From NCBI GenBank assembly GCA_020629715.1, contig JAHDCU010000007.1, positions 1-64,000 of the forward strand: a DNA stretch of 64,000 nucleotides, written 5' to 3'. Each line of letters starts with the position of its first letter. Positions within the stretch are counted from its first letter, which is position 1. The notes under the pieces were generated by a model. It was not told the origin of the DNA. It did no database searches and worked only from the letters and a program-made list of their open reading frames with translations. A program made the position numbers and the translations under genes. This stretch comes from Saprospiraceae bacterium. GTDB lineage: Bacteria; Bacteroidota; Bacteroidia; Chitinophagales; Saprospiraceae. This document shows positions 33,035-39,190 of the stretch, piece by piece.

Positions 33035-33121
33035 AATATTATACTTACTACCAGATTCAACATCTCATAGCACTATTTAGTTAGATGATCATCTCGAATT
33101 AAATAATGAAATGTATTGACA

Positions 33122-33529
33122 ATGACAGATACTTATCACCCATGGATGTCAACCGTAATGAAGGCCGCCGCAGTTTACAATATAGTATGGGGAGCATGGG
33201 CAGTATTATTTCCAAATCACTTTTTTCAAATAGTCGGTATGGAACCGCTGAATCACCCTATGGTATGGCAAGGCATGGGTATGGTGATCGGAGTCTATGG
33301 TCTAGGATATTGGTGGTCTAGCTATAACCCCATCAAGCACTGGCCTATAATTGCTGTAGGCTTCCTTGGAAAAATATTTGGTCCATTGGGTTTTATATTC
33401 AATTACATTCAAGGTATTGTTCCATTTGAGTTTTCTTATACCTTATTGACTAACGACCTTATCTGGTGGATTCCCTTCTTTTTGATTTTGAAAAAAGTCC
33501 ATCAAGATTTTAATTGGAGGCTATCATGA
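33122..33529 (+). CDS. Small polytopic membrane protein
   Basis: A 135-residue, Trp- and Gly-rich protein with four predicted membrane segments. I choose ATG 33122 over the TTG at 33116. It ends with an ATGA overlap onto the next membrane protein gene, so the two are translationally coupled and perhaps form a complex. Family not recognised. Confidence 0.7.
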   Translation: MTDTYHPWMSTVMKAAAVYNIVWGAWAVLFPNHFFQIVGMEPLNHPMVWQGMGMVIGVYGLGYWWSSYNPIKHWPIIAVGFLGKIFGPLGFIFNYIQGIVPFEFSYTLLTNDLIWWIPFFLILKKVHQDFNWRLS

Positions 33530-33957
33530 ATAGTATTGCCGTACCTATAACATACGCAGCAGAAGCACTATTTGATTTCGGTCTAGTCATTCTCATATTG
33601 ATTGTACAGATTATTATATATCCATCATTCAGATTTTATGAATTAGACCGTCTCAAAAAAATTCATAGCCGCTATACTCGTTCTATTACTATGATGGTCA
33701 TGCCGTTGATGATACTACAGATCGCAATGAAAATTTACATGTTATGGACAAAGCTCTATTGGTTAGAGTCAATAGCTCTATTGATAGTATTGATCATTTG
33801 GTTCATAACCTTTCGCTATGCCGTACCTATACATAATGACATTCAGAAAGCTAGCAGTTCGATGGTTTTTTCACAGGATCTAGTAAAAATTAATTCTTAT
33901 AGAACCTTACTCTGGTGCTGCATTTTCCTGCTTACCCTTTTCAAAATATTTATTTAG
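33526..33957 (+). CDS. Polytopic membrane protein
   Basis: A 143-residue protein with four membrane segments and a basic loop 'RLKKIHSRYTRS'. The start at ATG 33526 is decided by a GGAGG at 33516-33520, five bases upstream, and by the ATGA overlap with the preceding stop; an in-frame ATG four codons earlier is less likely. Family not recognised. Its last 4 nt overlap the convergent TetR gene. Confidence 0.7.
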   Translation: MNSIAVPITYAAEALFDFGLVILILIVQIIIYPSFRFYELDRLKKIHSRYTRSITMMVMPLMILQIAMKIYMLWTKLYWLESIALLIVLIIWFITFRYAVPIHNDIQKASSSMVFSQDLVKINSYRTLLWCCIFLLTLFKIFI

Positions 33958-34637
33958 CCCAACATACGATCGAGCATATAATCTATCATCACAATAGTAT
34001 CCTGACATGGTTTGCACTCAGTACTACCATCATAGTCAGTCAAGGTAGGGAAATGTGTCATATAATATTCACTATTGAGCGAAAGCTCAATGATATTGGT
34101 AGCTAAAGCTCTCGGAAACTTAAAAGATTCATCTACTTCTTTGATGATAGATGACATGGTAGAGACTAATTTCTTATAATTATTGTAAAATCCTTTCTCT
34201 TGAAGCTGATCTACCTTTTTATTGTGATAGACTTTAGTTGCATTTTCCACTACGATACGATGCAACTTATCTTGATCAATGTAATCAGGGGTCGTGGCAT
34301 TGCCTAGTGACATAACTAAAGTTTTCACAATAATCTTAAGTCGCTCCTTGGGATCTGAAACATTTCGAGTATCGAGAATAATCATGAAGTGCATATAATC
34401 CCAATACCATGCTACGAGGTAAGCCAATAATCGATACTTATTTTCAAAATAACGGTATACCGATGCCTCTGTAGATTCCATACTCTTTGCTAGCTTCTTG
34501 AAATTGAAGTCTTCAAAGCCTATTTCATCTAATAGGATTATAGTATGATGCAACATCTTCTTGCCAAGCGCAGAGGATAGTGGGTCTCTAAGATATATGG
34601 AATCGTTAATCTCTACAGTTATGTTTACTTGTGGCAT
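33954..34637 (-). CDS. TetR-family transcriptional regulator
   Basis: A 227-residue regulator. A TetR helix-turn-helix lies at about 25-75 ('LLDEIGFEDFNFKKLAKSM', 'STEASVYRYFENKYRLLAYL'), and a helical ligand-binding domain follows. It is transcribed divergently from the ABC-HlyD-TolC exporter genes, the usual place of a TetR repressor of efflux. The palindrome TAATAGT-AAA-ACTATTA between the two genes is its probable operator. The inducing ligand is unknown. Confidence 0.9.
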   Translation of the reverse strand: MPQVNITVEINDSIYLRDPLSSALGKKMLHHTIILLDEIGFEDFNFKKLAKSMESTEASVYRYFENKYRLLAYLVAWYWDYMHFMIILDTRNVSDPKERLKIIVKTLVMSLGNATTPDYIDQDKLHRIVVENATKVYHNKKVDQLQEKGFYNNYKKLVSTMSSIIKEVDESFKFPRALATNIIELSLNSEYYMTHFPTLTDYDGSTECKPCQDTIVMIDYMLDRMLG

Positions 34638-34722: not shown

Positions 34723-36399
34723 ATGACTGAAAATAAGGTTTTAAATCCGCTGCAACGTTTTTATAGATTACTACTCGTCGATCAAAAAGATATCACTCAA
34801 GTATACATATATGCATTGTTTACAGGATTGGTCAATCTATCATTGCCTTTAGGTCTACAGGCCATCATCAATTTAATACAAGGTGGAGAGATATCTACAG
34901 CTTGGGTGGTACTTGTTATATTGGTCATACTGGGTATACTCTTTACTGGTATATTGCAACTTATACAGCTCAGGATAGTGGAGAATGTTGCCCAAAAAAT
35001 TTTTAGCCGAGCATCTTTTGAATTTGCATTTAGGATACCAAGGATCAAAGCAAGACAGTTATACTATTACTATGCACCCGAACTTGCTAATCGATTTTTT
35101 GATACCCTGACCATCCAAAAAGGTCTCCCTAAAATACTCATTGACTTTTCATTAGCATCCTTTCAAGTGGTCGTGGGTCTGATTGTACTCAGTCTGTACC
35201 ACCCATTCTTTATATTATTTGGAATCGCCCTGATCGCGTTGATCATCATCATATTTGTATTTACTGGACCTAGAGGACTCAGCACGAGCCTCATAGAGTC
35301 CAAATATAAATACCAAATGGCGCATTGGTTAGAGGAAGTAGCTAGGACCAAAATATCTTTCAAACTAATAGATAATCCTCAAATTGCCTTAAGTGAAACA
35401 GATACAAAAGTCCAAAACTACCTAGGAGCAAGAGAAAAGCACTTCCGTGTATTAGTAATCCAATTTTTACAATTTATTGGTTTCAAAACCCTAATCGCTG
35501 CCGGGCTTTTGATCATAGGAGGAGTGTTAGTCTTTAATCAGGAAATGAACATCGGTCAGTTTGTAGCAGCAGAAATTATAGTACTTTTAATTATCAATTC
35601 TGTTGAAAAGTTAATACGATCTCTCGACTCGGTATATGATGTGTTGACAGCATTAGAGAAGATCGGTTATGTGACTGATATGGAACTAGACGATGATGAG
35701 GGACTCGACTTTAATCATGATGATCAAGGAATAGAGGTAGGAGTCTACAACTTATCTTTCCAATATCCAGATAATACGTCCAATGTACTGGATGATATCA
35801 CTTTTACTATTCCTAAAGGTATAAACTCCCTCATCATGGGTAGTAGTGGATCTGGGAAATCGACACTCATGCAATTATTAAGTGGTATTATCGAGCCTGA
35901 TAGTGGTGTCATCAAATATAATGGACTTTCTCTACGGTCGATCAATAGTCAAGATTTCAGATCACATGTAGGATTTTCTTTGTCTAATAATGAAACTTTT
36001 CTAGGTACCCTGCTCGATAATATTGCCATGGGTCGGGATAATGTCAGTATATCAGATGTAAGTGATGTCATAGACTTTGTCAATCTGCGAGACTTTGTCA
36101 AAACACTTCCTGAAGGGCTCAATACCGTTTTAGATCCAGAAGGTAAAAAACTACCAAGAAGTGTATCCAACAAGATATTGCTTGCACGGGCAGTAGTGGC
36201 TCAGCCCAAGTTGCTATTGCTGGAGGATCCTCTTGACCATGTCTGCGCCAGTGAAAAAGAAATCATCATCAAAAAGCTTACTGATCCATCTAATCCCTGG
36301 AGTCTAGTGGTGACTACCGTAGATGACTTATGGAAAAAATATATCCCCGAAATGATCACTGTCAATAATGGTAATGTTGTTAATCCAAATCAGAAGTAG
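34723..36399 (+). CDS. ABC exporter (membrane plus ATPase), degenerate nucleotide-binding domain
   Basis: A 558-residue half-transporter with about six membrane helices (about 20-310) and an ATPase domain (about 335-555). Walker A is intact (GSSGSGKST, K379). The Q-loop lacks Gln ('VGFSLSNNET'), the LSGGQ signature is replaced by 'KLPRSVS', Walker B ends LLLLEDP instead of LLLLDEP, and the H-loop His is absent ('VVTTVDD'). With the HlyD and TolC genes downstream it forms a type I-like tripartite pump. No N-terminal peptidase domain is present, so a bacteriocin-processing exporter is unlikely. Catalysis may need another subunit or be very slow (inference). Confidence 0.88.
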   Translation: MTENKVLNPLQRFYRLLLVDQKDITQVYIYALFTGLVNLSLPLGLQAIINLIQGGEISTAWVVLVILVILGILFTGILQLIQLRIVENVAQKIFSRASFEFAFRIPRIKARQLYYYYAPELANRFFDTLTIQKGLPKILIDFSLASFQVVVGLIVLSLYHPFFILFGIALIALIIIIFVFTGPRGLSTSLIESKYKYQMAHWLEEVARTKISFKLIDNPQIALSETDTKVQNYLGAREKHFRVLVIQFLQFIGFKTLIAAGLLIIGGVLVFNQEMNIGQFVAAEIIVLLIINSVEKLIRSLDSVYDVLTALEKIGYVTDMELDDDEGLDFNHDDQGIEVGVYNLSFQYPDNTSNVLDDITFTIPKGINSLIMGSSGSGKSTLMQLLSGIIEPDSGVIKYNGLSLRSINSQDFRSHVGFSLSNNETFLGTLLDNIAMGRDNVSISDVSDVIDFVNLRDFVKTLPEGLNTVLDPEGKKLPRSVSNKILLARAVVAQPKLLLLEDPLDHVCASEKEIIIKKLTDPSNPWSLVVTTVDDLWKKYIPEMITVNNGNVVNPNQK

Positions 36400-37783: not shown

Positions 37784-39190
37784 ATGAGGATCGTTAGCCT
37801 ATTTATATGTATCAGCTTAGTAGTCTTTAGCTATAGTCAAGTGCCTAGTGGTGATATACTCAGTCTGCAGGAGTATCTCAGTATCGTAAAAGAAAGTCAT
37901 CCTATCATGACTAGAGCTTCCTTACTACAAGAGCGCGGTCAAGCAATCCTGATGGAAAGTCGTGGTGCATTTGACCCCAAGCTGGAGGCTGATCTCGATC
38001 GTAAAAATTTTGAAAATAAAGAATATTACAATAGACTTAGCTCCAAACTAAAAATCCCTACTCGCTTTGCTGCAGATCTTGGAGTTGGATATGAACGAAA
38101 TAATGGAGAATTTCTAGACTCCAGCGAACTACTACCTGCCAGAGGTCTATGGTCAGCAGGTGTTGAGATTCCACTTATCAGAGGCTTGGTCAATGATGAA
38201 CGTCGTACTCAGCTCAAACAAGCCGAACTGCTAAATCAAATGCTCGAGCAAGATCGCATACAATTAGTCAATGAACTACTCATAGATGCTAGCACAGTAT
38301 ATCTAGAGTGGCAATATGACTATGCATTTATCCAGATTCAAGAAGAAGCGTTGAATATAAGCCTCGAACTATTTGATGCTGTAAAGAGTAGCTTTTTAAA
38401 TGGAGACAAAGCAGCCGTAGATACCCTAGAAGCCGCTATCCAAGTGCAAAACAGAAGAGTCAACTTGAGTAAGGCAATACAATATCTACAGGATAGTAAG
38501 ATCAATTTGGAAAATTATCTCTGGAGTATCAATGGTATCCCTCTTGAGTTACAAGAGCAGATCAATCCTGAAGACATTGACCTAAGCTGGCAAGAACAGA
38601 GCATCTTAGAAATGCGTATTCAACTTGACGAACTGGCGCTAAATAATCCAGAAATCATCACGATGGGGCTCGAAGTACAAGATCTTGATCTCGAACAGAA
38701 ACTAAGTAGAGAGTTACTCAAGCCAGATCTGCGTCTAGGTGCTTACTTACTTAGTGGTGCTGATGAGCAAACGGTCGTAAATCCGATCCAGCTTGATAAT
38801 TATAAAATACAAGCCTCCTTTAACTACCCTCTATTCTTGAGAAAAGAAAGAGCCAAAGTAAAACTTAACCAACTAAAACTTAACGATACAAGGCTTAAGC
38901 TTAAAAATAAAGGGCAGCAAGTACGTCAGAAATTGTATGCCTATCTCAATAATCATGATCAACTCATTGATCAAACCGAACAATACGTTTTTCTCGTAAG
39001 TAACTATAGTGATCTGTTCAATGTAGAGAGAATAAAGTTTGATCTAGGAGAGAGTAGTCTTTTTCTTTTAAATTCTCGACAAAATAAATTGCTTGAGAAT
39101 CAAGAAAAATATCTTAAGTCACAGTATGACTTGTTGTATTATCGTTTGCTATTTCTTTATCAAACAGGTAAACTTGAAGAAATTCTATAA
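37784..39190 (+). CDS. TolC-family outer-membrane channel
   Basis: A 468-residue outer-membrane efflux protein: signal peptide (about 1-18, ending VFSYSQ) and two TolC/OEP repeats of long coiled helices (about 30-230 and 240-465). I place the start at ATG 37784, 7 nt after hlyD, because a frame opening 120 nt earlier lies inside hlyD and hides the signal peptide. It forms the outer duct of the ABC-HlyD pump. Confidence 0.92.
   Translation: MRIVSLFICISLVVFSYSQVPSGDILSLQEYLSIVKESHPIMTRASLLQERGQAILMESRGAFDPKLEADLDRKNFENKEYYNRLSSKLKIPTRFAADLGVGYERNNGEFLDSSELLPARGLWSAGVEIPLIRGLVNDERRTQLKQAELLNQMLEQDRIQLVNELLIDASTVYLEWQYDYAFIQIQEEALNISLELFDAVKSSFLNGDKAAVDTLEAAIQVQNRRVNLSKAIQYLQDSKINLENYLWSINGIPLELQEQINPEDIDLSWQEQSILEMRIQLDELALNNPEIITMGLEVQDLDLEQKLSRELLKPDLRLGAYLLSGADEQTVVNPIQLDNYKIQASFNYPLFLRKERAKVKLNQLKLNDTRLKLKNKGQQVRQKLYAYLNNHDQLIDQTEQYVFLVSNYSDLFNVERIKFDLGESSLFLLNSRQNKLLENQEKYLKSQYDLLYYRLLFLYQTGKLEEIL

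Follow-up and report, generated by a model that had tools for sequence, protein, structure and literature searches.

The 64,000-nucleotide stretch analysed here (the window: positions 1 to 64,000 of contig JAHDCU010000007.1, from a Saprospiraceae bacterium) raises the question of what an ABC half-exporter does once its ATPase domain has lost its catalytic motifs. The preliminary description placed a degenerate exporter ATPase at 35730-36399, an interval that corresponds to the nucleotide-binding domain (NBD) of a gene at 34723-36399 (Table 1). Its reading of the motifs, with Walker A intact, the Q-loop Gln, the LSGGQ signature and the H-loop His missing, and the Walker B acids in swapped order, was borne out in every part when the protein was aligned with four canonical half-exporters that its own genome encodes. 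Of eight catalytic consensus residues, the NBD in the window keeps none, compared with 8, 8, 7 and 7 in the paralogues. Walker A, the A-loop Tyr348 and the ARA-motif Arg489 remain. The further statement that only one half-transporter gene is present holds for the operon and fails for the genome, where a search for other half-transporters returned these four canonical half-exporters, all encoded away from the window operon.

Table 1. Features of the exporter locus; positions are those of the window, residue numbers those of the half-exporter.
Feature	Position	Strand	Basis or remark
Degenerate ABC half-exporter gene, type IV fold	34723..36399	+	558-aa open frame; AF2 mean pLDDT 87.7; Foldseek TM 0.89 to PCAT1 and HlyB
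Transmembrane domain (TMD), res 1-330	34723..35712	+	Conserved half; all that the TMD-only clade retains
Coupling helix 2 region, res 204-222	35332..35388	+	Boundaries inferred from the AF2 model; eroded in TMD-only relatives
Glu284 in TM6	35572..35574	+	Acidic in 258/258 family members, 0/14 canonical exporters
Nucleotide-binding domain (NBD), res 336-558	35728..36396	+	Catalytically degenerate
A-loop aromatic Tyr348, kept	35764..35766	+	Alignment
Walker A GSSGSGKST, res 373-381, kept	35839..35865	+	Alignment
Q-loop position: Ser421 for Gln	35983..35985	+	Alignment
Signature position, res 477-481: LPRSV for LSGGQ	36151..36165	+	Alignment
Walker B acids: Glu501-Asp502 for Asp-Glu	36223..36228	+	Alignment
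H-loop position: Val533 for His	36319..36321	+	Alignment
HlyD-type periplasmic adaptor (MFP), 457 aa	36403..37776	+	Domain matches; starts 3 bp past the exporter gene
TolC-type outer-membrane channel (OMF)	37784..39190	+	Start inferred as the ATG ahead of a signal-like segment; mechanical ORF start 37664
TetR-family regulator, divergent from the exporter gene	33954..34637	-	Domain match

The exporter in the window matched Pfam ABC_membrane (PF00664, E 7.1e-09) and ABC_tran. Its best NCBIfam matches were NHLP/LssB-type exporters (LssB, NHLM ABC1/ABC2), far under the curated cut-offs (163.8 bits against a cut-off of 709.4 for NHLM ABC2). An AlphaFold2 model built on 61 relatives grouped with the type IV exporters HlyB, PCAT1, TM287/288 and TAP (Foldseek, VIA-align). 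The top fold matches were HlyB 8dck and PCAT1 8voz, and comparison with many exporters gave a Z of about 29 over about 545 residues. Since the model fits type IV exporters, the predicted fold of the NBD is intact while the catalytic residues are not. A structure of the TMD alone, predicted from the single sequence, reached a pLDDT of 52 and was set aside.

The gene setting was constant among 80 named loci of relatives, each with one half-exporter gene and, after it, the adaptor gene. The MFP was present in all 80 and the OMF in 77, the remaining three reaching contig ends; a TetR relative lay near the operon in 61. Clustering of the neighbours yielded no constant gene besides regulator, exporter, adaptor and channel. 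A second half-exporter gene adjoined the operon in none of the 80 loci, and the other NBD frames seen in the flanks of four loci measured about 173-311 aa. In the window itself, two small membrane-protein-like frames without a Pfam match adjoin the TetR regulator (33116-33957).

Matches at E ≤ 1e-30 occurred in 66 of the 100 genomes around the window's own, a few of them via other exporters only, and the family profile at E ≤ 1e-60 matched 97 of 395 genomes across the phylum. A contig labelled as a Bifidobacterium breve MAG (L084) also carries this Bacteroidota operon and is probably mis-binned or mislabelled. A first motif alignment of 110 rows includes near-duplicates; the counts that follow refer to 209 full-length relatives that are distinct over residues 60-300, with the partial L174 and L197 and the NBD frame of L254 excluded. 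The loss of motifs extends across the lineage, with 173 of the 209 keeping none or one of the eight residues and only 9 keeping at least four. No member has LSGGQ; 15 have the Q-loop Gln, 16 the Walker B Asp and 14 the H-loop His. Walker B reads DE in 12 members, only 9 of which combine it with the H-loop His, all outside the window's class; the swapped ED acids occur in 106, and other members have T, N, S or K at the Asp position. Retention was near-complete for the Walker A Lys (207/209) and complete for the ARA Arg (209/209). Judged by the alignment, the catalytic loss is real and lineage-wide.

The nine members keeping at least four residues (L161-L165, L167-L170) are the most distant ones. 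They have Walker B DE and the His, with the signature already altered and the Q-loop Gln gone, and on the tree they fall outside the degenerate clade. This position suggests that the Q-loop and the signature were lost first, and Walker B and the His later. An extra N-terminal stretch of ~150-250 residues precedes the TMD in L161-L168, L171, L172 and L321 (about 690-840 aa); it had no Pfam match in L161, L163 and L171.

The more conserved half of an ABC exporter is normally its NBD. Among 30 family members, mean identity was 61% over the TMD and 37% over the NBD, and the NBD was the higher of the two in none of 435 pairs. The control consisted of 30 orthologues of the genome's MsbA-like exporter, taken from the same relatives as the family members; here the TMD stood at 51% and the NBD at 68%, with the NBD higher in 98.6% of 435 pairs. 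The window protein and the members at the 80 named loci, 81 in all, gave 59% for the TMD and 36% for the NBD. The NBD thus evolves faster than the TMD in this family. It is no free-drifting relic in the window, where it is under purifying selection: against the nearest relative, dN/dS was 0.024 for the TMD and 0.027 for the NBD, at a dS near saturation. Selection as strong as on the TMD, together with the Walker A Lys kept in 207 of 209 members, argues that the NBD of the window lineage still has some role.

Some relatives have dispensed with the NBD altogether. The search of the phylum returned six matches ending at residue ~330. Family-wide searches around two of them found such TMD-only genes in 33 of 101 genomes (96 with any match) and in 11 of 101 (39 with any match), and a third family had one in a single genome (all three tallies counted by hand). 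We checked singly 37 distinct TMD-only genes with their flanks, from 36 genomes, three of which are single-contig assemblies (G344, G533, G657). Every one is an open frame of 330-385 aa stopping after TM6, and in all 37 loci the adaptor gene and then the TolC-type gene follow directly. The largest gap between a TMD-only gene and the MFP frame was 118 bp, many stops overlap the start of the adaptor frame, and no NBD lies in this gap in any of the 37 loci. On the TMD tree these genes form one clade (SH-aLRT 100) nested within the degenerate family; of the two trees made, one took in 62 of the 209 full-length and all 37 TMD-only rows, the other 49 and 19. The TMD-only genes are under purifying selection, with dN/dS of 0.036-0.068 in four of six pairs; in the other two, dS was saturated and gave no ratio. 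One genome (G642) has three family genes (L261, L262, L267), one full-length degenerate and two TMD-only, each with its own adaptor and channel.

A profile of the family NBD was run on 37 genomes, with the separate NBD frame beside the TMD in G656 serving as positive control (350 bits). G642 and G610 were found to hold full-length copies too. The other 34 genomes carry TMD-only genes and no full-length copy, and the profile detected no free family NBD in them; among the matches listed, scores were at most 183 bits and came from exporter-size frames, the best non-control match lying within a frame of 594 residues. Of 14 segments, only coupling helix 2 varied more among TMD-only members than among full-length ones (entropy 2.22 vs 1.99), and Arg208 fell from 92% to 25% (weighted). 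Such erosion is the expected outcome of lost NBD docking. At one locus (L254:3843-6025), left out of the TMD-only set, a TMD frame of 498 aa overlaps an NBD frame of 236 aa, either as a split gene or through a frameshift; it may perhaps be an intermediate towards NBD loss.

ATP binding has also been given up in members that keep part of the NBD. In a search of plasmids, 15 records from Sphingomonadales carried the family. All nine of these genes that were aligned, on which the sphingomonad tallies rest, are without P-loop, signature and Walker B, and an NBD-like stretch remains; adaptor and channel accompany the sphingomonad genes wherever annotated. The P-loop is gone as well in Aureibacter tunicatorum (L322). 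On the tree, both the sphingomonad and the Aureibacter genes are separate from the TMD-only clade, the sphingomonads on a long branch (3.6) with a support of only 80. As these P-loop-less lineages lie apart from the TMD-only clade, ATP binding has been given up independently at least three times, subject to the long branch of the sphingomonads and that support of 80. Read from the genes, the function of the operon outlasts the removal of NBD catalysis, then of ATP binding, and finally of the NBD itself.

Position 284 in TM6 is acidic throughout the family: in all 209 full-length members, all 37 TMD-only members and all 12 plasmid-borne ones. It is acidic in none of the four canonical paralogues and in none of ten T1SS-like exporters from the relatives (706-760 aa), which are termed C39-type by length and not by domain search. 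The full-length, TMD-only and plasmid-borne sets also share an invariant Lys133, Ser193 and Lys196. The structural model would place Glu284 in the outer part of the membrane span. The residue predates the loss of the ATPase, because it is also present in the outgroup members with Walker B DE and the His.

To account for the degenerate NBD, a homodimer with odd kinetics or a partner encoded elsewhere had been proposed at the outset. Of the first proposal, the homodimer is likely, and odd kinetics is too mild a term because the family does without NBD catalysis entirely. A homodimer might still hydrolyse ATP slowly through rearranged residues (each swapped Walker B acid in the role of the other, further groups in those of His and Gln), as would suit the kept Walker A, A-loop aromatic and ARA Arg, the frequency of the swapped acids (106/209) and the purifying selection on the window NBD. 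We nevertheless consider real hydrolysis improbable, since other members have T, N, S or K in place of the Walker B Asp, the NBD is the faster-evolving half, and P-loop-less or NBD-less relatives retain the same operon. The second proposal fares slightly worse. Pairing with a canonical half-exporter, or borrowing of a soluble ABC ATPase, could draw on the four other half-exporters of the genome, and canonical exporters were found in 60 of 60 relatives searched; because they occur in all 60, presence or absence cannot settle whether an NBD is shared in trans. A partner is disfavoured, however, by the lone half-exporter at all 80 named loci, by the lower conservation of the NBD, and by relatives that have no NBD, an eroded docking segment and no free family NBD found in their genomes. 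Moreover, lacking the signature and the catalytic residues, the window subunit would complete neither composite ATP site of a heterodimer, even with a canonical partner, and no partner was identified. A heterodimer as in TAP or TM287/288 was rejected, as there is no linked second half and the subunit is without parts of both sites.

In the best rival this protein is not itself an active transporter. It would form a passive, gated channel, or would dock the adaptor and the TolC channel as a subunit for assembly or sensing, with another pump or a concentration gradient doing the work. Repeated loss of the ATPase with MFP and OMF retained is compatible with such a role, and the ion-gradient drive is hypothetical. 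We think it unlikely, if less so than slow hydrolysis, because the TMD is always part of the operon and carries many invariant charged and polar residues, and because no second pump is encoded alongside in the 80 named loci. Intact ATPases in orthologues, together with an error of sequencing or alignment, had been named as grounds for abandoning the initial reading; LSGGQ in 0 of 209 relatives speaks against both. A sequencing error is ruled out by the same motif loss across relatives, and the chance of a pseudogene or of any such error is negligible, with nearly all 209 distinct relatives sharing the state, a dN/dS of about 0.03, and 7-8 of the eight consensus residues in the canonical paralogues in the same alignment.

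We therefore favour a pump that has changed its source of energy. The window gene would encode the inner-membrane part of a TetR-regulated tripartite exporter consisting of exporter, HlyD-type adaptor and TolC-type channel. The family descends from ABC exporters akin to those of type I secretion and would no longer require ATP hydrolysis by its own NBD. Independence from this hydrolysis is very probable, because the motifs are lost, the NBD is deleted in one clade under purifying selection, and the P-loop is lost separately elsewhere. In the window lineage the NBD would be a conserved pseudo-ATPase with a structural or regulatory role; ATP binding probably persists, as expected from the kept Walker A, A-loop and ARA Arg, and the domain would be without the parts needed for forming and firing the ATP sandwich. 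Transport would fall to the membrane domain, most likely acting as a secondary exporter driven by an ion gradient, and Glu284 of TM6 is the lead candidate for the coupling residue. Another source of energy is suggested because many relatives dropped the ATP engine and kept the remaining pump. We infer transport, homodimerisation and a proton (or other ion) gradient as the drive. The odds for an ion gradient as such are about even, and for the joint reading, independence from the protein's own ATP hydrolysis together with ion-gradient drive, our estimate is a probability of about 0.5. An ion-gradient-driven, ABC-derived secondary exporter in a tripartite envelope complex is the simplest account.

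Some neighbouring genes give a hint of the substrate. Of 78 sampled genomes that have both the operon and a SulP-type transporter related to that of L051, 4 carry the two no more than 10 kb apart, where about 0.5 would be expected; for DabA it is 2 of 19, against about 0.1 (pairings read by hand from the search tables). SulP genes occurred in 78 of 97 genomes with the operon and in 26 of 298 without it, a difference confounded by phylogeny. SulP-type genes stand beside the operon in distantly related members (L051:11262-13468, L162:143-1550, L185:13-1396, G246, G222, G387); in L051 a carbonic anhydrase gene comes after the SulP gene, and in L162 and L185 the exporter is closely preceded by stretches resembling SulP and carbonic anhydrase. 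DabA (PF10070, an inorganic carbon transporter subunit) adjoins the operon on a Sphingobium plasmid and in two Bacteroidota genomes (L320:1362-3914, L333:5690-7939, G474:C8). A link of the operon to inorganic carbon or pH handling is possible.

If the favoured reading holds, genes annotated as 'ABC transporter ATP-binding protein' throughout Bacteroidota, and likewise on plasmids of sphingomonads, would be non-ATPases, and TolC-linked exporters could run on an ABC fold without ATP. The TMD-only and P-loop-less members open ATP-independence to direct test, for example in the culturable, non-pathogenic Novosphingobium aromaticivorans, whose strain DSM 12444 has the three-gene operon on pNL2 (SARO_RS19820). 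The family also offers a natural series for a primary (ATP-driven) transporter changing kind, a question hitherto argued mainly from SbmA. The open full-text literature, with subscription journals mostly outside it, yielded no description of an NBD-less or pseudo-ATPase ABC-fold exporter linked to TolC.

Among known systems, the type I secretion and peptide ABC exporters (HlyB, PCAT1; LssB, NHLM ABC1/ABC2) come closest, by the best NCBIfam and fold matches and by the three-gene HlyD/TolC setting. An exporter, a HlyD-type adaptor and a TolC-type channel are encoded together here too, but an active ABC ATPase is not predicted, at 0 of 8 catalytic residues; of the marks of an ABC exporter, the TMD with its type IV fold and Walker A are present, and the signature, Walker B DE, Q-loop Gln and H-loop His are absent. 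The family further differs in that its TMD is more conserved than its NBD and some relatives are NBD-less. Heterodimeric exporters with one degenerate site (TM287/288, TAP, TmrAB) retain one complete composite site, formed by two different subunits, whereas the window gene is single and is without Q-loop, signature, Walker B and H-loop together. The portions of a review of degenerate sites drawn on here (PMC7756269) deal with transporters retaining one active site; they report that loss of the catalytic Glu often accompanies H-loop changes and that ATP can stay bound unhydrolysed in degenerate sites.

Tripartite pumps driven by RND or MFS proteins share the adaptor and the TolC-type channel, and an ion-gradient drive would be common to them and the window family, whose inner-membrane part is, in contrast, ABC-derived. 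ABC, RND and MFS are the engines named in the cited part of a review of tripartite systems (PMC8277102). It is tempting, at somewhat less than even odds, to see a fourth kind of engine here, a multi-phylum tripartite family in which an ABC exporter has turned into an ion-gradient secondary pump, with the full conversion series extant, from a near-intact NBD through an ATP-binding pseudo-ATPase and a P-loop-less NBD to a deleted NBD. The precedent for such a conversion is an importer. In the sections of PMC13316013 used here, SbmA is a proton-run peptide importer derived from YddA-like proteins, with an ABC-type TMD and neither NBD nor coupling helices, the latter being lost in the SLiPTs (SbmA/BacA) generally. 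The TMD-only clade mirrors these proteins in its exporter-type TMD, missing NBD, eroded coupling helix and conserved membrane glutamate; the window protein itself has an NBD. Of the glutamate ladder that marks proton-coupled transport in SbmA/SLiPT, the family shows the conservation of Glu284 only. No match to the SbmA/BacA Pfam model was found for the window protein (E up to 0.001) or for the TMD-only L155, L157 and L266 (E up to 0.1), all of which matched ABC_membrane; the absence of SbmA from the 50 matches listed in either fold search has no bearing either way. The window family also differs from SbmA/BacA in its T1SS-like origin, in being encoded with adaptor and channel, and presumably in exporting. 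We infer that the window family is analogous to SbmA yet independent of it.
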